Source: Deltaproteobacteria bacterium
GTDB taxonomy: Bacteria > Myxococcota_A > UBA9160 > SMWR01
Reading direction: 5' to 3'
NCBI GenBank assembly: GCA_019313245.1
Contig: JAFDBP010000018.1
Location: 1 to 42,721, forward strand
DNA: 42,721 nt
The notes below the pieces were generated by a model that did no database searches, had not been told where the DNA came from, and saw nothing but the letters and a program-made list of their open reading frames with translations. How positions within the stretch are numbered: the stretch's first letter is position 1; each line of letters starts with the position of its first letter. Of this stretch, positions 5,394-16,366 are shown one piece after another. The position numbers and the translations under genes were made by a program.

Positions 5394-7730
5394 TCACTGC
5401 TCTCCAGCCTGAAGCGAACGGATCTCGGCGAGCAGTTGGCGCGCGCCGGGATCTTCAGGCAGCAATTCGACCAAATCCAGCGCATACCTGAGGGCCGCTT
5501 GCCAATCTCCGGCGTCGCGACTCATGGTGACCAGCGCAGTCAGCAGCGCCTGGTCGCCCGGGTGCTGCCGATGCGCCGCGTTCAGCACCCTCAACGCGCG
5601 ATCGGCCTCCCCCGTCGAGTTCAGCGCGATCCCATAGACATAGGCGTAGCGCGGTGTTTCGGGCGCCAACTCCGCGGCGCGGGAGAGTTCCGCCATCGCG
5701 GTGGCGATCTCGCCCTGGCGAACCAGCGACAGCCCCAGCGCGTGGGAGAGTTCCGCGCTGTCCGCCACCTGCGCGAGGCCGGCGCGCAGGACGCGCTCGG
5801 CCTCGTCCTCGCGTTGGGTCTGGCGATACAGATCCGCGAGATTCACGTAGGCGGGCACGAACCACGGCCCGAGCCGCAGTGCGGTTTCCAACTCATTGCG
5901 GGCCCGTTCCAGTTGACCCTCCGCGACCGCGAGGGCGGCGAGATTCAGGCGGGCCTCGGGTCGGTCGGCATTTTCCATCTGCGCGGCGCGGTATTCGGCG
6001 AGGGGGCGTGCGAGCCTCGCCCGATCGCCCGGCTCCCAGAGTTCTTGGGGAATTGCGACCAGCGCGCGCGCGGCCTGAATCCGGACGCCCAACACCGGAT
6101 CGCGCAGCAATTGCCGAACGAGTTTCAATCTCGAGCGCGGCTCGAGGCTCTCCGCGGCTTCCAGCGCTGCAACCCGGATCAGCGGATCCGGGTCTCCGAG
6201 ACCGCGCCGCACCGCGTCCGCGGTCTGCGGAGCCGGAGGCAGCATGTGCAGGGCCGTTGCGCGAACGATCGCCGGCACGCTGGGCTCGTTCGCCAGTTCG
6301 GCGAGTGCGCGCGCGGCCCCGGGTGCGCGCTGCCGGCCCGCTCGCAGAATCTGTCCGTAGTGGGTTTTTTCGGCAAGCTCGGTGCCCCACCAACGCTCGG
6401 CGGCTTCGGCCGACCACTCCACCGACTGGTCGGCGTGGCAGTCCGTGCAGGTGTTGGGGCTACCGATCGCGAGCGTGAGGTCCGGACGCGGGATGCGGAA
6501 GCTGTGGTCGTGCCGCAAGTCCACGCCCATGTAATGGCGCGCGAGCATGTGACACGCGACGCAACTCGAGCCCGTCGATTTCCATTTGTGGTGGTGGTGT
6601 TCGGGCACCGCATACACATCCGCGCGGTGGCAGCCGAGGCAACTCAGATCGGGGTTCTCGGGCAGCTGCAACGCGTGGCCGTCGTGGCAATCGGTGCAGA
6701 CGACTCCCGACGCGTGCATGCGGCTTTGGAGAAAGGAACCCCAGACGTAGACCTCGTCGAAAATCTGGCCGTCCGCGTAATAGAGCGGAGCGTCGACAAG
6801 CGCCGGGCGGTGGGTGTCGAGAAGCGACTGACCGCGGACCGGCTCCGGGTGCAGCACGCCGCGGCGCGAATGACAGCGCCCGCAGGTATCGAGCTGTGCG
6901 TCCGCCCCTTTTTCCGGCGAGCGGTGTGCGAATTTCTCGTCGCTGTCAAAGCGCCAGACGCCGTCGTTCCGGAGATCGACCGTCAGACCGTCGTCGGGAT
7001 TGTCCCGATCGAACGCGAGTTGTTGATCGGCGCCCGCTTCCGCGCGAGCGTTTGCCCACGCCACGTGGGCCGACCCGGGGCCGTGGCACTCCTCGCAGGA
7101 GACGTCGATCTCCTCCCAACGGGTCTCGTAGCGGTCTTCATCGGCGAGGTAGTTCTTGCGGAGATTCGTCGAGTGACAATCGGCGCACATGTAATTCCAG
7201 TTCTGGTTCGGCCCGGTCCAGTGGAGCACGTCGCCGGCGGGGACCGGGTCGTCGGGGTGGAGGTGGAACCAGCGCTGACCGCCCTCGCTCTCGGGCCGAT
7301 TGTCCCAGCACACGCTCAGGGCCTGAAGGCGCCCGCCCGGAAATTCGATCAGATATTGCTGGAGCGGATCGAAGCCAAACACATACGCGATCTGGTAATC
7401 GCGGAGTTCCCCATCGGGGCCGTCCGTGCGCACGAAGAACTTTTCGTCGCGCCGGTAGAAAGTGGTAGTGACGCCGAAGTGCACAAATTGCGCGTCATTG
7501 AAATCGCCGAGCACGCTGGTCTCATCGACAACCTGCATCGCGAGGTCGTGATGCGACCCCTTCCAGAGCTCGTACTCGGCGACGTGACAGGGCTCGCAGA
7601 CCTCGCCCCCCACGAAATAAAGCCGAGGAATCGGAGACTCCGTCGCGCGCTCGCCTGGCTCGACTCGATCACCGCACGCGGTCAGTGCGGCGATTGCGGC
7701 GATCGCGCAAAGCCGGGTAGATCGATCCAA
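5394..7730 (-). CDS. Octahaem c-type cytochrome lipoprotein with HEAT- and TPR-like repeats
   Basis: 778 residues. A type II signal ends in the lipobox LTAC (Cys19). Eight CXXCH haem sites follow: CEPCH (45), CADCH (~180), CEECH (~211), CGRCH (~282), CTDCH (~344), CLGCH (~361), CVACH (~390) and CTDCH (~427), with several spare His as possible distal ligands. This matches the cytochrome c554-like multihaem family. Residues about 440-545 resemble HEAT repeats, and about 550-770 are TPR-like helices, so an electron-transfer module is joined to a protein-binding scaffold at a membrane surface. I chose the TTG at 7730 because GGGGAGG sits just upstream and the signal peptide becomes a normal length; an in-frame GTG at 7772 adds 14 residues. 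The redox partner is unknown. Confidence 0.9.
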   Translation of the reverse strand: MDRSTRLCAIAAIAALTACGDRVEPGERATESPIPRLYFVGGEVCEPCHVAEYELWKGSHHDLAMQVVDETSVLGDFNDAQFVHFGVTTTFYRRDEKFFVRTDGPDGELRDYQIAYVFGFDPLQQYLIEFPGGRLQALSVCWDNRPESEGGQRWFHLHPDDPVPAGDVLHWTGPNQNWNYMCADCHSTNLRKNYLADEDRYETRWEEIDVSCEECHGPGSAHVAWANARAEAGADQQLAFDRDNPDDGLTVDLRNDGVWRFDSDEKFAHRSPEKGADAQLDTCGRCHSRRGVLHPEPVRGQSLLDTHRPALVDAPLYYADGQIFDEVYVWGSFLQSRMHASGVVCTDCHDGHALQLPENPDLSCLGCHRADVYAVPEHHHHKWKSTGSSCVACHMLARHYMGVDLRHDHSFRIPRPDLTLAIGSPNTCTDCHADQSVEWSAEAAERWWGTELAEKTHYGQILRAGRQRAPGAARALAELANEPSVPAIVRATALHMLPPAPQTADAVRRGLGDPDPLIRVAALEAAESLEPRSRLKLVRQLLRDPVLGVRIQAARALVAIPQELWEPGDRARLARPLAEYRAAQMENADRPEARLNLAALAVAEGQLERARNELETALRLGPWFVPAYVNLADLYRQTQREDEAERVLRAGLAQVADSAELSHALGLSLVRQGEIATAMAELSRAAELAPETPRYAYVYGIALNSTGEADRALRVLNAAHRQHPGDQALLTALVTMSRDAGDWQAALRYALDLVELLPEDPGARQLLAEIRSLQAGEQ

Positions 7731-10195: not shown

Positions 10196-13100
10196 ATGAT
10201 TGGCGCCGATTATTTCACCCGCATTGCGCGAAACCCCACCCGAACCAGACGAACTGCGACAACCGAAGAACGCGCCTACCTGCAGGATGGCTGGGTGCTG
10301 GCGAATCACATCCTGGTTTCGTTTCACGCGGCATTCATTTCATCGGTTCTCGTGCTGCCGTCACTGGATGTTTCAAAGGGCGAGGTGTTGCAGTTCATCT
10401 TCGTCAGCCCGGAGACCGTGCTATCCGCGATCTTCGTCTACATCACGTTTCATGTCGGCGTCGCAATCCACGAAATCGGACACTTCCTGACCGCGGCACG
10501 ACTCAACGCATTGAATGACTCGATCGCCGAGGAAGTCAAGGTTAACTTGCAACTCCGAGGAGTGTCACGCTGGCTCTATTTCGCAAAGTTGTTTGCGCTG
10601 GCGCCGTGGGGGCGTGCAACGGGAATCAAGCGACAGGGACTGAACTACTACCCCGACGCGCCGTTCAATCTGGCGGTCGCCGCCGCCGGGCCCCGGGCCA
10701 GCCGCAACCTCGCGCTCATCATGCTGCCCCCGTCCGCCCTGTTGCTCGGCCTCGGCCTGTGGCTGTCCGCGATTCCCGCCATCTACGTCGGCCGGCTCCT
10801 GCTGGGGATCGGCATCGTCGCGGCGCTCGACTTCCGGATCGCAGATCGCGGCAAATACCGCGAGTTCCAACAACGCGAACGCAAGGCGCGCGAAACGGCC
10901 GAAGCGCTGCCGCCGGTCACGGGCTGGTTCGCACAGGCCGCGAAGGCCAAGCAGCAGCTCGTCGATTCGCACATGCAGGAAGTACTGCACCCCAACCTCG
11001 GTCCGGTCACGGCACCCTGGCAGTTCCGCAACTGCGGGATGGGCGGGCGCCATACCATCAAGGAGTACCCCGAATCGAATATCAGCATGCAGGAAGCGAT
11101 GTTCATGATCCGGGGCGCGCAGAACTATCTCGACGCCCAGGAGATGACGGTCGCGCTGCAGTCCCGCCTCAAGGAGATCATCGAAAACGCGGAGGGGTGC
11201 CGCGTGATGGGAATCGGGCTCGAAGGCGGCCTCGCACCCTACATCGACCGCGGCGAATATCGGCTGCCCGAAGTCCGGCTCTGGGCGATGATGAAGCAGG
11301 CGATCGAAGAGTGCGGCTATCGGCCCGGCGAAGACGTGGCGATCGCTCTCGACCCCGCGATGAGTGAACTCGAAATCGCCTACCGAGAGGAATTTGGCGT
11401 ACCCGACAGCGTCGGCACGTATCTGTTCTGGCGCGACGAAAGCAAGACGGTGCTCGATCGCGATGGCGTGCTCGAACTCTACGACCACGCTCTGCGCGAA
11501 CTCGACATCCCGCTGCTCTCGATCGAGGACGGCTTCTCGGAAGACGATCACGAGGGCTGGAAGCTGCTCCACGCAGCCCAGGGCGAGCGGCTGCTGATCA
11601 TCGGCGACGACCTCATCACCACCAACGACGCCACGATCGAAGACGCCGCCGACCGCGGCCTGGTCAATTCGGCGCTGATCAAGGCCAACCAGATCGGCAC
11701 GCTGCACGAGACGGTACTGGCGATGCTGGTCGCACTCAGCAAGGGACTGTCGCTGGTGATCTCGCACCGCTCGAAGAGTCCCAACGACGACATGGAGGCA
11801 CATATCGCGCTGTCGACGAACGCGCTCGGCCTCAAGGCGGGCGGCGGTGCGAATACCGAGCGACTGGTGAAGTACCACTCCGTCGCAACCCAGATGGCGA
11901 TGATCGACCGCGGGATGGCCGCCACCGGGGCCGTCGACGGCAGCGCACTGGTCGTCGATCTCTCCGCCAACGAGGAACCGACCAATGCCGGCATTCCGAC
12001 GGTGGGCGTCGAGGCAGATATCAGCGTGCCGATGGGATCCGTTCGGCTGAGTTTCCGCGGCGCCACTCCGCTGGGAACGTCTGCCGGAACTGGCGAAGCC
12101 GTCCACCTGATCGACGGCGTGTTCGAAGGTGCCGAACACGCGGAAACCGTCGCTGCGCACGGCGCAATTCTCGACGAAACCGAGCCCGGTGTGTACGCGT
12201 TTCGCAAGGGCGTGACGTTTGCGCAGGTAGAAAAGCTCGGTGACGACGATCTCTCCGCTCTGTTCCTGCGGTCGCGGCGCTACCAGGGCAAGGGTTGCAT
12301 GAACGCGGTCGACAACGTGCGCGAGGTCATCGCGCCCTACTTCCGCGGCCGCGACCTCGCGAGTTCTTCGTTTCTCGACATCGACCGCGCTCTGCTGCAG
12401 CTCGAACGGCGGACTGCGGAACGCCGCGGCAAACTCGCACCGGACGCTTCGGCCGAAGAAGCCGTCAAGGTGATGCAGCGCAAACAGAACCTCGGCATGA
12501 ATGCCGTGCTGTCGGCTTCGCTCGCAATGGCCCGCGCCATCGCGAACGTACGCGGCAAGCAGTTCTGGGAACTGATGCGCGAAGAGATGCTCGTCATCAT
12601 CGAGCGGCTCGCGAACGAGCACGGCATTTCGGTCGACGGTATCCGCTGGGAAGATTACGTAGCGGCCCTGCGCGAGGTCGCCGGGATCCTGGAGGGTGAG
12701 GGCACCCCGATCCACGCCGAGCTTCGGCGACTCACGGGTGTCTACGACGATCCGCAGCTCGCCGCTCCGTCCTCGCTGCCGTTGCGGCGGCCTCCCCGCT
12801 CCGGAGAGGTCGCGATCTCCGCCGCCGCGGAGCGCGTACAGCCGACCGGCGCGTCCGGAATCGCCGCCGCAGACACTGCAGGGCTCTCGCCCTCGCCGAG
12901 CGCGGGAACGGTGCTCAGCGAAGCGCAACACAAGGCAATCCTCGAGGTGAGCGCGGCGTTCTACAAGAACTACGCGACGGATGCAGACCCCGACCAGCGC
13001 CGCATCGCCTTGCGCCAGTATCTGCGGGTGCGAACCGAGACGATGAAAACGGTGCGGCCGTTCGAAATCGTCAACGACAAGATCATCCGCACCGAGGACC

Positions 13101-16100
13101 GGGTGCTGGTCCCGTACCTGGCCGGAGACGACTTCCTGGTGCACGACGTGCGCGGGGGCGAAGTCACCGCGAACTCCAGACGGCTGCAGCCCGGGACGAT
13201 CGTCACCGACGAGCTCCTGGCAGAGATGACCGGCGTGCGCGGCGACGTGATCGACCTCGACGGTGAAATCTACGGCTACGCGCCGGACGAGATGCCCGAG
13301 ATTCGGATCTCGCGGGTCCGCGACATGACGGCACTGCTCAAGAAGCTCGGAGCGTCCGCCAACTACTACGGCGCGGCCATCTATCTCCGCGGTATCGTGA
13401 TGCGACTGTGCGAACACTCCTTCCGCGGTTTTCTCGATGCCAAGAATCTGCGCTCAGAGGTGCACCAGCTGAATCAGGAAATCGTCGAAGTGCTGAAGTG
13501 CCCGTTCGCGGATCGCCTCCGCCTGGGGATGCGCGTACTCGTGCGCAAGGCCTCCGGCTTGTTGCTGCGACCGAGTCTGATCGATCAGGTCTGGGTCGAT
13601 TCGATCGACCTATCGGAGGTTCACATCCGGGGCAGCCGGATCGCCAACGAACTGCGCCGAAGCAGCCATCACGCACTCGGCAAATCGACGCTCGAACTCG
13701 CAACCGCCTATCACGAGTATTTCGAAAACGGCAACGCCGAAGGCCTGGCGGCTCTCGGCTTCGGTGAATTGTCCGACACCGACGAGGCAGCGCGGCAGGA
13801 AACCGAGCCGCGCGCGCTGCTCGAGCGGATCGTGCACAACCTCGAAAAACTCCTCGGCAGCGCGCAGATTGCGACTCGCATCCGCGAATGGCAGGACGTC
13901 TACGCCGAGGCCCTGCTCCGCTGCGATTTTGGCGAGAGCCTCGAAGGGGAGTTGGGAACCACCGTCGAAGGCGGCATTCGAGCGCGCAACCGCTGGGTCT
14001 TCGGCCATCACCTCCGCATCCTCGGCAAGAAGGTCGAAGAAGTGTCCGCGCTGCTGGATGGCGCGGACTACGGATCGGAGCTGAGCGCGCTCGAGCAACT
14101 CGATCCCGCGGATCCCGATTTCGATGCTCCGGGCGTCGAAGCATCGGTGCGGGACATCGTGGCGCGACTCACGGGCACTCTGCGCGAACGCTGCCAGACT
14201 GCGCTCTTTTCGTCGCTCTACGAAGCGCTCGCGGCATTCGAGAGCGATGACTTCCTCTCGACCGTGCGCCTGCTGGCGCGAGTGCGCGACGATATCGAGT
14301 TACTGGCGGATTCCGGCGGTTTTCCCGAACAGCGCTATCTGCTGATTCAACTCGACTGCTTGCTCGAAGAGATGGGCTATCTCGCGACTCGCCACATTGC
14401 GAGCAGTTACCAGAAAGACGGCGTACGGCTCGACGAATGTTTCGAGATCATCTCCATATCGGCGCGAAATCTCGCTCACGGCGGATTGTACTCGGAAGAG
14501 CTCTGCGAACTGGCGAAGATGCTCGCTCCCCCCGGCCGTAACGATGTCGAACTTCTGAACGTCATCGAAGCATTGCAAGATTGCTACCACCGCGTGTTGC
14601 AGCGTACCTCCCTGTCGTACGAAGCCCTCGATGAGCTGCTGGGGCTCTCCAAAGACGAGCTGCGGAGTGTGATCGCCAACCTGCAGCGCTACATGCACGA
14701 TCTGCACAGCATCGCAAATCTCACCGACCTGGCGAAGACAAACCTGCGCGCTCGCACCCAGGATGCACCGCAGATCGCAGACGAAGTGATCGAACTGCCG
14801 GAGTCGTTCGACGTTCTCCACCTCGCACATCTCGACGAAATCGCAGCGCGCCTCGCGAATCCGAACGTTTCCCTGCGCGAAACCTTCGGAAACAAGGGCG
14901 GCAGCCTGATCCGCATCAGCCACGCCGGGATACCGACCCGTCAGGGCTTCGTCCTGCCGACGGATCTCGCCCGTTCGCGGGTCCACGAGCGCGACCCGGA
15001 GCGTTTTGCAAACGAAATCGCCACACACCTCGCGGTTCTCGAACAGGACATCGCCCGGCGCGACGGACAAAGGGTGCAATTCGGCAATCCGCAGCATCCG
15101 CTGCTGCTCGCGGTGCGCGGGGGCTCGGTGTTTTCGATGCCCGGAATCCTATCGACGATTGTGTTCGTCGGGATCAACGACGAGATCGCCGCGGCGCTGG
15201 CAGCCGAAGACCCGTGGTACGCCTACGACACCTACCGCCGCTTCCTGACTTCGTGGGGGGCCTCGGTGATGGGTGTGGATCTCGAGCGCTTCCACCTCGT
15301 CGAAGAGGCGAAGGAAACCCACGGGATCCGCTACAAGAACGATCTGCCCTGGGAGGCGATGCGAGACATCGCACATAACTGCAAGAAGATCCTGCGCGAG
15401 CACGGCGACTCCGACCTGCTGGATGCGTCACTCGAGAACCCCGAGCGCCAGCTCACCGCAGCGGTAACTGCCGTCATCGAATCCTGGAACACCAAACGAG
15501 CCGAGCGCTACCGCGAAATCAAGGGCATTTCAGACACCTGGAACACGGCAGTGGTCATCCAGCAGATGTCGTCCGGCAATCGGCGCAGCGCCGAAGTGCA
15601 CGAGGGTATGGACGAGACACGTTGCTCACTCACCGGCGTGATTCCGAAGACGATGGTGACGCGACTCGGCTTGCGGCGGTTGACCGGGGACATCAAATTC
15701 TCGGCCGCGGGAGACGATCTCGTAGGCGGCTTGACCGCGGCGGACTCATTCGAGCCGATTGCCAGACTGCGCAGCCTGATGCCGATGCTCGAGCGCCGCA
15801 TCGATCACGCGGGAACGCGAATCCGGATGGCGAGGGGCACCGACGTCGAGATCGAATTTACCGTCGAGCGCGGTGTCCTCAGCATCTTGCAGGCGCGAAC
15901 AGCGGTAACCACGCTGAAGGAAGAGGTGCGATCGTTCGACCAGCCGGGAGAAGCGACCGCCACGGGAATTGGCATCCGCGGAGGCGCGTTCCGCGGCCGA
16001 GTCGCGTTCAACGATGCAGATCTCGCCCAGCTCGCGACCCTGGAGGATTCCGACTCCGACGGTGTACTCCTGCTGCTCGAGAACCCGACTCCGAATGAAA

Positions 16101-16366
16101 TCCCGTTGATCCTGTCTGCAGGTGGCTTGCTGGCCGCGCGCGGCGGCTCGACTTCACACGCCGCGGTGGCCGTGCACGGGATCGAAGATCGACCGTTCAG
16201 CGCGGTGCTTGGCGCAACTGCGCTGCGTGTCGACACCGAGAACCAGCATGCGACATTCGTCGACTCCGATGGTCGCGAGGCGGCGCGGGTCACGAGCGGC
16301 GACGTGGTGTCGATCGACGGCCACACCGGCGAGATCTGGATCGGGACGCGGGCGATTCAGGTTTAG
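10196..16366 (+). CDS. Giant fusion: M50-like membrane domain, domain-swapped enolase, PPDK ATP-binding and phosphohistidine domains
   Basis: 2056 residues. Residues 1-225: membrane region with HEIGH at 92-96, an AAGP motif near 165 and LD at 211-212, as in site-2 (M50) metalloproteases. Residues ~266-575: enolase catalytic barrel with His286, Glu290, Glu343, metal ligands Asp386, Glu444 and Asp471, Lys496, HRS 524-526 and Lys547. Residues ~590-800: enolase N-terminal domain, placed after the barrel, with the loop Ser (PLGTSAGTGEA, Ser629). A Pro/Ala linker (~858-905) precedes a beta-rich part (~950-1040) and a helical part to ~1550, both unassigned. Residues ~1555-1910: pyruvate phosphate dikinase nucleotide domain with Lys1567, Arg1641, Glu1887 and Gln1899. 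Residues ~1920-2056: phosphohistidine domain, GGSTSHAA with His1988; the PEP/pyruvate barrel is absent. The ATG at 10196 follows GAGAAG. Likely reactions: 2-phosphoglycerate to PEP, and ATP-dependent histidine phosphorylation. The combined role is unknown. Confidence 0.9.
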   Translation: MIGADYFTRIARNPTRTRRTATTEERAYLQDGWVLANHILVSFHAAFISSVLVLPSLDVSKGEVLQFIFVSPETVLSAIFVYITFHVGVAIHEIGHFLTAARLNALNDSIAEEVKVNLQLRGVSRWLYFAKLFALAPWGRATGIKRQGLNYYPDAPFNLAVAAAGPRASRNLALIMLPPSALLLGLGLWLSAIPAIYVGRLLLGIGIVAALDFRIADRGKYREFQQRERKARETAEALPPVTGWFAQAAKAKQQLVDSHMQEVLHPNLGPVTAPWQFRNCGMGGRHTIKEYPESNISMQEAMFMIRGAQNYLDAQEMTVALQSRLKEIIENAEGCRVMGIGLEGGLAPYIDRGEYRLPEVRLWAMMKQAIEECGYRPGEDVAIALDPAMSELEIAYREEFGVPDSVGTYLFWRDESKTVLDRDGVLELYDHALRELDIPLLSIEDGFSEDDHEGWKLLHAAQGERLLIIGDDLITTNDATIEDAADRGLVNSALIKANQIGTLHETVLAMLVALSKGLSLVISHRSKSPNDDMEAHIALSTNALGLKAGGGANTERLVKYHSVATQMAMIDRGMAATGAVDGSALVVDLSANEEPTNAGIPTVGVEADISVPMGSVRLSFRGATPLGTSAGTGEAVHLIDGVFEGAEHAETVAAHGAILDETEPGVYAFRKGVTFAQVEKLGDDDLSALFLRSRRYQGKGCMNAVDNVREVIAPYFRGRDLASSSFLDIDRALLQLERRTAERRGKLAPDASAEEAVKVMQRKQNLGMNAVLSASLAMARAIANVRGKQFWELMREEMLVIIERLANEHGISVDGIRWEDYVAALREVAGILEGEGTPIHAELRRLTGVYDDPQLAAPSSLPLRRPPRSGEVAISAAAERVQPTGASGIAAADTAGLSPSPSAGTVLSEAQHKAILEVSAAFYKNYATDADPDQRRIALRQYLRVRTETMKTVRPFEIVNDKIIRTEDRVLVPYLAGDDFLVHDVRGGEVTANSRRLQPGTIVTDELLAEMTGVRGDVIDLDGEIYGYAPDEMPEIRISRVRDMTALLKKLGASANYYGAAIYLRGIVMRLCEHSFRGFLDAKNLRSEVHQLNQEIVEVLKCPFADRLRLGMRVLVRKASGLLLRPSLIDQVWVDSIDLSEVHIRGSRIANELRRSSHHALGKSTLELATAYHEYFENGNAEGLAALGFGELSDTDEAARQETEPRALLERIVHNLEKLLGSAQIATRIREWQDVYAEALLRCDFGESLEGELGTTVEGGIRARNRWVFGHHLRILGKKVEEVSALLDGADYGSELSALEQLDPADPDFDAPGVEASVRDIVARLTGTLRERCQTALFSSLYEALAAFESDDFLSTVRLLARVRDDIELLADSGGFPEQRYLLIQLDCLLEEMGYLATRHIASSYQKDGVRLDECFEIISISARNLAHGGLYSEELCELAKMLAPPGRNDVELLNVIEALQDCYHRVLQRTSLSYEALDELLGLSKDELRSVIANLQRYMHDLHSIANLTDLAKTNLRARTQDAPQIADEVIELPESFDVLHLAHLDEIAARLANPNVSLRETFGNKGGSLIRISHAGIPTRQGFVLPTDLARSRVHERDPERFANEIATHLAVLEQDIARRDGQRVQFGNPQHPLLLAVRGGSVFSMPGILSTIVFVGINDEIAAALAAEDPWYAYDTYRRFLTSWGASVMGVDLERFHLVEEAKETHGIRYKNDLPWEAMRDIAHNCKKILREHGDSDLLDASLENPERQLTAAVTAVIESWNTKRAERYREIKGISDTWNTAVVIQQMSSGNRRSAEVHEGMDETRCSLTGVIPKTMVTRLGLRRLTGDIKFSAAGDDLVGGLTAADSFEPIARLRSLMPMLERRIDHAGTRIRMARGTDVEIEFTVERGVLSILQARTAVTTLKEEVRSFDQPGEATATGIGIRGGAFRGRVAFNDADLAQLATLEDSDSDGVLLLLENPTPNEIPLILSAGGLLAARGGSTSHAAVAVHGIEDRPFSAVLGATALRVDTENQHATFVDSDGREAARVTSGDVVSIDGHTGEIWIGTRAIQV

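Follow-up and report, generated by a model that had tools for sequence, protein, structure and literature searches.

A conserved fusion of a protease-like membrane domain, a circularly permuted enolase and a dikinase half in bacterial metagenome-assembled genomes

What kind of protein carries, in a single chain, a metalloprotease-like membrane domain, an enolase and part of a dikinase? The question is raised by a gene on contig JAFDBP010000018.1 of a Deltaproteobacteria bacterium (assembly GCA_019313245.1; the window is the whole stretch of 42,721 nucleotides that was analyzed). A preliminary description of this gene listed a HEIGH membrane domain, an enolase with all mapped catalytic residues and parts of pyruvate phosphate dikinase (PPDK) in one uninterrupted frame. 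The frame stands as described, with an ATG start and no internal stop codons (Table 1), and the enolase does retain the full catalytic set; that description overlooked that the enolase is circularly permuted, with the TIM barrel ahead of the N-terminal domain, and it mentioned neither the roughly 640 residues of no known family between the enolase and the ATP-grasp domain nor the absence of the phosphoenolpyruvate/pyruvate-binding barrel of PPDK.

A conserved fusion in many bacterial phyla

The GC content of the three codon positions (0.67/0.44/0.79) is typical for coding DNA and, together with the ratios of nonsynonymous to synonymous substitution rates (dN/dS) given below, rules out a chance open reading frame. 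Pfam searches detected Enolase_C (residues 283-563, E 1.9e-46), followed by Enolase_N (599-738, E 2.3e-11), PPDK_N (1614-1798, E 2e-13) and PEP-utilizers (1955-2045, E 2.5e-6); the NCBIfam models for PPDK (1.3e-71) and eno (2.8e-60) were matched as well, each under its equivalog cut-off.

A scan of named genomes, with one genome per species, yielded 57 loci, all in metagenome-assembled genomes (MAGs), from approximately 15 phyla as read from the record titles. The hosts are labeled as Deltaproteobacteria/Myxococcota, Acidobacteria, Aminicenantes, Gammaproteobacteria (Lysobacterales, Chromatiales), Planctomycetota, Krumholzibacteriia, Gemmatimonadales, Desulfonatronum, Dehalococcoidia, WOR-3/Stahlbacteria, WOR-1, Omnitrophica, Elusimicrobia, Spirochaetes and others. 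All six modules, as delineated with our own domain profiles, are present in 24 frames including the gene studied here, and the remainder are cut by contig ends or are variants. The M50-like domain, the barrel and the N-terminal domain follow each other in this order in all loci where the order is visible, which dispels the concern, raised in the preliminary description, that the fusion might lack homologues with the same order. The distribution is patchy: the M50 profile strongly matched 8 of the 379 sampled Myxococcota genomes, 19 of 147 genomes of the WOR-3 phylum and about 4 of 193 sampled Omnitrophota.

The same joints between the modules recur in independent genomes. MAGs of the same genus are 91-92% identical where the M50-like domain meets the enolase and where the enolase meets the helical region; in a Myxococcota MAG from another family (67%), all joints are spanned ahead of a frameshift within a local duplication; and two more distant Myxococcota genomes encode the six modules in single frames of 2331 (G172) and 2145 (G349) amino acids. 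Fused copies are also found on a 4.35-Mb chromosome (CP070750), and the G172 genome consists of only 5 contigs. All of the joints are likewise spanned in many other loci. Because independent genomes span the joints, an assembly chimera is ruled out, and the fusion protein is a real, conserved architecture.

Table 1. Features of the fusion gene and its product
Feature	Residues	Position in window	Strand	Length or basis
Fusion gene: M50-like / circularly permuted enolase / helical region / ATP-grasp / phosphohistidine		10196..16366	+	2056 aa
M50-like (site-2 protease-like) membrane domain	25-225	10268..10870	+	Pfam, hydropathy, AlphaFold2 (AF2)
HEIGH, putative zinc-binding motif	92-96	10469..10483	+	H92, E93, H96 invariant in alignment
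LDFRIAD, candidate third metal ligand	211-217	10826..10846	+	D212/D217 conservation
Enolase C-terminal TIM barrel, preceding N-domain	255-575	10958..11920	+	Pfam, AF2, alignment
Enolase N-terminal domain, after barrel	595-845	11978..12730	+	Pfam, alignment; loop serine S629
Linker, weakly conserved	851-905	12746..12910	+	dN/dS
Mostly helical region without family or fold match	906-1550	12911..14845	+	Pfam, AF2, Foldseek
PPDK-type ATP-grasp domain	1555-1912	14858..15931	+	Pfam, NCBIfam, alignment
Phosphohistidine (swivelling) domain, GGSTSHAAV	1915-2054	15938..16357	+	Pfam, alignment
Predicted phosphoryl-carrier histidine (PPDK His455 equivalent)	H1988	16157..16159	+	invariant 27/27

The modules and their relatives

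In ordinary enolases, the N-terminal domain stands first. In the fusion protein, the full-length eno model (TIGR01060) needs two stretches to align in the natural order, and when the N-domain is moved ahead of the barrel, it matches as one stretch (profile positions 53-403); the score changes from 204.2 to 211.6 bits, under the equivalog cut-off of 300 bits in both cases. The barrel precedes the N-domain in every locus that shows both parts. The AF2 model of residues 1-850 (36 aligned sequences; mean pLDDT 84.4, pTM 0.83) displays a membrane helical bundle, the barrel and the N-domain in this order. In a Foldseek search with this model, all 50 listed PDB matches were enolases (best E 7e-15), with the barrel superposed at 3.0 A over 311 columns at best and, the superposition being collinear, never both halves together.

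The enolase catalytic set, which in yeast numbering we take to be S39, H159, E168, E211, D246, E295, D320, K345, H373, R374, S375 and K396 with their generally accepted roles, is represented by eleven barrel residues (H286, E300, E343, D386, E444, D471, K496, H524, R525, S526 and K547) and by S629, the counterpart of S39, in the N-domain. None of the 12 catalytic and Mg-binding residues is missing, and none varies across the 36 diverse sequences aligned; the eleven of them compared in a second alignment (D246 excepted) are likewise invariant in all of its 51 sequences. The barrel is under the strongest purifying selection in the protein, with dN/dS of 0.035-0.041 against same-genus copies and 0.10 against the 67% relative, compared to 0.10-0.12 for the N-domain against the same-genus copies. 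The permuted family differs from canonical enolases (PF00113/PF03952), with which it shares both domains, in the motifs that flank the catalytic residues (LGTSA for SGAST, LEGG for DEGG, SKSPND for SGETED), in a lengthened loop behind the GGRH histidine, and in the fusion to a membrane domain. In a phylogeny built from 41 permuted enolases and 24 canonical ones, including those of the same hosts, a single, fully supported, long branch separates the two sets; the tree neither dates the permutation nor roots it within enolases, and the single branch implies one old lineage of permuted enolases rather than repeated rearrangements.

The membrane domain resembles site-2 proteases of the M50 family (SpoIVFB, RseP) in the HExxH motif within a predicted membrane helix, a candidate aspartate ligand and a putatively cytosolic, C-terminal ligand-binding part; it differs in the weakness of the sequence match and in that this part consists of enolase and dikinase modules instead of CBS or PDZ domains. 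Hydropathy peaks (approximately residues 39-57, 67-85, 172-190 and 193-211) accompany AF2 helices at 31-52, 72-102, 159-190 and 193-216, with HEIGH inside the second. H92, E93 and H96 are invariant in 36 of 36 sequences, as is D217, and D212 is retained in 35, which is beyond what a plain anchor requires. The M50 assignment made in the preliminary description is supported by weak matches of 19 of 25 homologues to PF02163 (best E 4.6e-5) and by the family's own M50 profile, which weakly picks up site-2 proteases of the RseP type in other proteins (E about 1e-5 to 6e-4). The dN/dS of the domain is 0.07-0.14 against same-genus copies. A basic stretch after the last membrane helix is consistent with a cytosolic location of the enzyme domains.

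The linker behind the enolase is weakly constrained (dN/dS 0.38-1.0 overall, 0.38-0.48 against same-genus copies), and an HD domain is inserted between the enolase and the helical region in two relatives (L080 and G172). The approximately 640 residues that follow match no Pfam family above the cut-off; in an AF2 model (mean pLDDT 77), they form mainly helices, plus a short beta-rich segment close to the start, and dN/dS of the helical part is 0.13 against same-genus copies. In a Foldseek search with this model, PPDK alone was significant, for the C-terminal part, and HpeI was weakly matched (ATP-grasp part, E 0.19). K1567, R1641, E1887, Q1899 and H1988, the equivalents of PPDK K22, R92, E323, Q335 and H455, are invariant in 27 of 27 sequences. 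In the first half-reaction of PPDK, ATP, together with inorganic phosphate (Pi), is converted to AMP and pyrophosphate (PPi), leaving a phosphoryl group on the histidine; by analogy, the dikinase half should carry out this half-reaction, with the phosphoryl group on H1988. The PPDK parts named in the preliminary description, the ATP-grasp and phosphohistidine domains, hold, the latter with the GGxTSHAAV motif as in TIGR01828. The protein ends after the histidine domain, with no Pfam match to PEP-utilizers_C, and the barrel that binds phosphoenolpyruvate (PEP) and pyruvate is missing. Other dikinases also join ATP-grasp and swivelling domains with unrelated, non-pyruvate acceptor domains, or are split over two proteins (RPH, HpeHI, PpsAB; PMC12167813); unlike these, the fusion protein has a different domain order, shows no rifampin/phenol-type acceptor domain among Pfam matches above the cut-off in residues 906-1550, and is joined to the enolase and the membrane domain.

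The dikinase half is not constant in the family. In an Acidobacteria locus (L040), two adjacent genes encode an M50-enolase (957 amino acids) and the helical-ATP-grasp-phosphohistidine part (1184 amino acids); WOR-3/Stahlbacteria encode a stand-alone M50-enolase of about 850-890 amino acids; and the M50-enolase units of Omnitrophota and Elusimicrobia lie inside very long frames. The tested WOR-3, WOR-1, Spirochaete and Omnitrophota genomes, two of which are single chromosomes, contain only canonical-type PPDK-like matches and no helical-ATP-grasp-phosphohistidine copy. Conversely, the dikinase half occurs alone in some Myxococcota, such as G233, which has no M50 match, and another Myxococcota genome (G349) has an additional dikinase half besides the fusion. 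With the membrane domain, barrel and N-domain constant and the dikinase half optional, split or absent, the link between membrane domain and enolase is the conserved element: the family is built around the M50-permuted-enolase unit, which the dikinase half frequently accompanies. Nearly all hosts encode a separate canonical enolase, canonical-type PPDK-like genes are common in the same genomes, and in four WOR-3/Stahlbacteria loci, the canonical enolase gene lies directly downstream of the M50-enolase gene, within approximately 100 bases.

Each module has a known fold; the whole protein departs from every parent family in a defining feature, and none of the described systems that we found joins these modules. 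The open-access papers searched contained no report of a circularly permuted enolase or of this fusion, most subscription journals and preprints being outside the scope of the search.

Possible functions of the fusion protein

We tentatively favor, at somewhat less than an even chance, a metabolite-gated intramembrane metalloprotease, or a protease-like membrane effector, gated by 2-phosphoglycerate (2-PG) and PEP through the enolase and by ATP and Pi through the dikinase half. The M50-like domain, including the HExxH metal site, would lie in the membrane, and the permuted enolase would face the cytosol, where it would bind, and probably still interconvert, 2-PG and PEP. In most lineages, the dikinase module would provide an energy input, with ATP (and Pi, as in PPDK) phosphorylating H1988 on the swivelling domain. 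Ligand in the enolase site and the phosphoryl group on the swivelling domain would then alter a conformation that is relayed to the M50-like domain and switches the cleavage of a putative membrane substrate. The permutation would set the start of the barrel right behind the last membrane helix and free the end of the N-domain for the dikinase module.

We count in favor of this mechanism the constant link between membrane domain and enolase, the invariant HExxH motif with the conserved aspartates, the low dN/dS of the barrel, the invariance of the first-shell enolase residues, including the phosphate-binding R374/S375 and K396, and the invariance of the nucleotide and histidine sites of the dikinase half while the PEP-binding barrel is absent. 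The nearly universal presence of a canonical enolase in the hosts implies that the fusion protein is not needed to supply enolase in bulk, and the HD domains inserted in two lineages suggest regulation. In SpoIVFB and other group 3 site-2 proteases, a CBS domain that binds ATP lies at the C-terminus in the cytoplasm, and reconstituted cleavage reportedly requires ATP (PMC6242693). Several observations weigh against a gated protease. The CBS domain of SpoIVFB was found not to be critical in vivo (PMC6242693); the Peptidase_M50 match of the fusion protein (residues 83-213; E 0.047) scores 13.5 bits, below the Pfam gathering score of 27.2; a profile search of solved structures recovered no M50 protein; and among the loci, no neighboring gene conserved across phyla presents itself as a candidate substrate. 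In addition, invariance of the complete catalytic set exceeds the needs of ligand sensing and argues for turnover.

Turnover is central to the reading that we rank next, which is rather doubtful: a membrane-anchored, working permuted enolase for local PEP supply or as part of a metabolon, with the M50-like domain as anchor or scaffold and the dikinase phosphorylating a small molecule or a protein to which the helical region binds. The invariant catalytic set, the strong selection on the barrel, the adjacency to canonical enolase genes in WOR-3 and the unrelated acceptor domains of RPH and HpeHI (PMC12167813) would all fit; however, the invariant HExxH and aspartate would be needless in an anchor, nearly all hosts already have a canonical enolase, and WOR-3 and Omnitrophota lack the dikinase half. 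The preliminary description had proposed a metabolon of consecutive glycolytic steps, a PEP-dependent phosphoryl device or a regulated protease that senses 2-PG/PEP. The first is weakened by the missing PEP/pyruvate domain, by the canonical enolase and PPDK-like genes of the hosts and by the WOR-3 and Omnitrophota M50-enolases that lack a dikinase half; the second may apply, although no PEP phosphotransfer site was identified in the fusion protein; the third is the one that we rank first.

Unlikely, and third in our ranking, is an enolase with a changed reaction, acting on a related phosphorylated hydroxy-acid, perhaps produced by the dikinase half, in a pathway that includes the membrane domain. 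The family-wide changes around the catalytic residues, the longer loop, the score of 204 bits against the 300-bit cut-off and the long branch point in this direction, although the residues that bind the phosphate and carboxylate of 2-PG (R374, S375, K396, H159, E168, E211, K345) are all retained. Very improbable, and ranked last, is a catalytically dead regulatory scaffold whose domains would serve folding or assembly, for instance with the canonical enolase. The gene adjacency in WOR-3 and the canonical enzymes in the same genomes are compatible with such a role, whereas catalytic residues invariant in all three modules over approximately 15 phyla are unexpected for pseudo-enzymes. Still more of a long shot is the possibility that the enolase barrel substitutes for the missing PEP/pyruvate barrel, the swivelling H1988 domain dephosphorylating PEP from the enolase site, so that 2-PG, AMP and PPi would be converted at the membrane to pyruvate, ATP and Pi, or vice versa, in a reaction that the M50-like domain would control or use.

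Few enzymes are as conserved as enolase. Here, a permuted form with an intact active site is kept in approximately 15 phyla; a protease-like membrane domain always precedes it, and a phosphohistidine dikinase is often joined to it. Should the enolase gate the membrane domain, as in the protease reading, lower-glycolysis metabolites would be directly linked to membrane proteolysis; if it is catalytic, these lineages would have a membrane-bound second enolase. The modules and the split forms are short enough for expression and assay.

Variant loci and related families

The neighbors of the fusion gene in the window (VWA-like, acid phosphatase and CitMHS transporter) provide no functional clue. 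In the 67% orthologue (L006/L039), the short duplication and frameshift in the ATP-grasp region (~5450-5470) and a second frameshift near the start look like an assembly fault. The Chromatiales MAG Ww343 carries two fusion copies on separate contigs (L058, L068). The surroundings of the four WOR-3/Stahlbacteria loci with an adjacent canonical enolase (L071, L074, L075, L079) include further conserved genes for a redoxin-like protein (by eye), DUF6029 and a 4Fe-4S membrane protein. Genes beside the Spirochaetes (L102:5390-10057) and WOR-1 (L101:4513-7080) loci show weak, partial PPDK_N matches (E 5.5e-9 and 2.7e-6, respectively) and possibly encode a diverged form of the dikinase half.

The long frames contain further metabolic domains. 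Omnitrophota frames of 3214 and 10304 amino acids (L078:751-10392 (L096), L143, L147-L149) combine the M50-permuted-enolase with a glutamate-dehydrogenase-like domain, the Pfam parts of which are reversed in L078 (C-terminal part at 618-774, N-terminal part at 909-1008); these frames also contain UDPGP, GlcN6P-isomerase and PIG-L domains. Beside the 3214-residue frame, two frames with apparent signal peptides (L096:10370-18044) encode phosphoglucomutase/phosphomannomutase domains and phosphofructokinase plus GlcN6P-isomerase domains, respectively. A 3123-residue Elusimicrobia frame (L091:5041-14409) includes a triosephosphate isomerase domain besides the M50-permuted-enolase, and an Omnitrophica frame of 10113 codons, open at both contig ends (L082/L094-L095, G419:C98), includes the M50-permuted-enolase along with histidine-kinase-like and ACT-like segments (by eye). 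In another Omnitrophota locus (L089:3-6860), two permuted enolases flank the M50 domain, one on each side.

Seven genomes of the same order (L015 5530-11754; L016-L021) encode a related dikinase-like family next to a divergent gene of the GAPDH family. Its members consist of a hemerythrin-like domain (L015), a helical region, an ATP-grasp domain and a phosphohistidine domain, without a PEP barrel. Homology of the helical region to that of the fusion protein was considered and rejected, the similarity not being significant; the ATP-grasp/phosphohistidine part is approximately 34-38% identical to that of the fusion protein.

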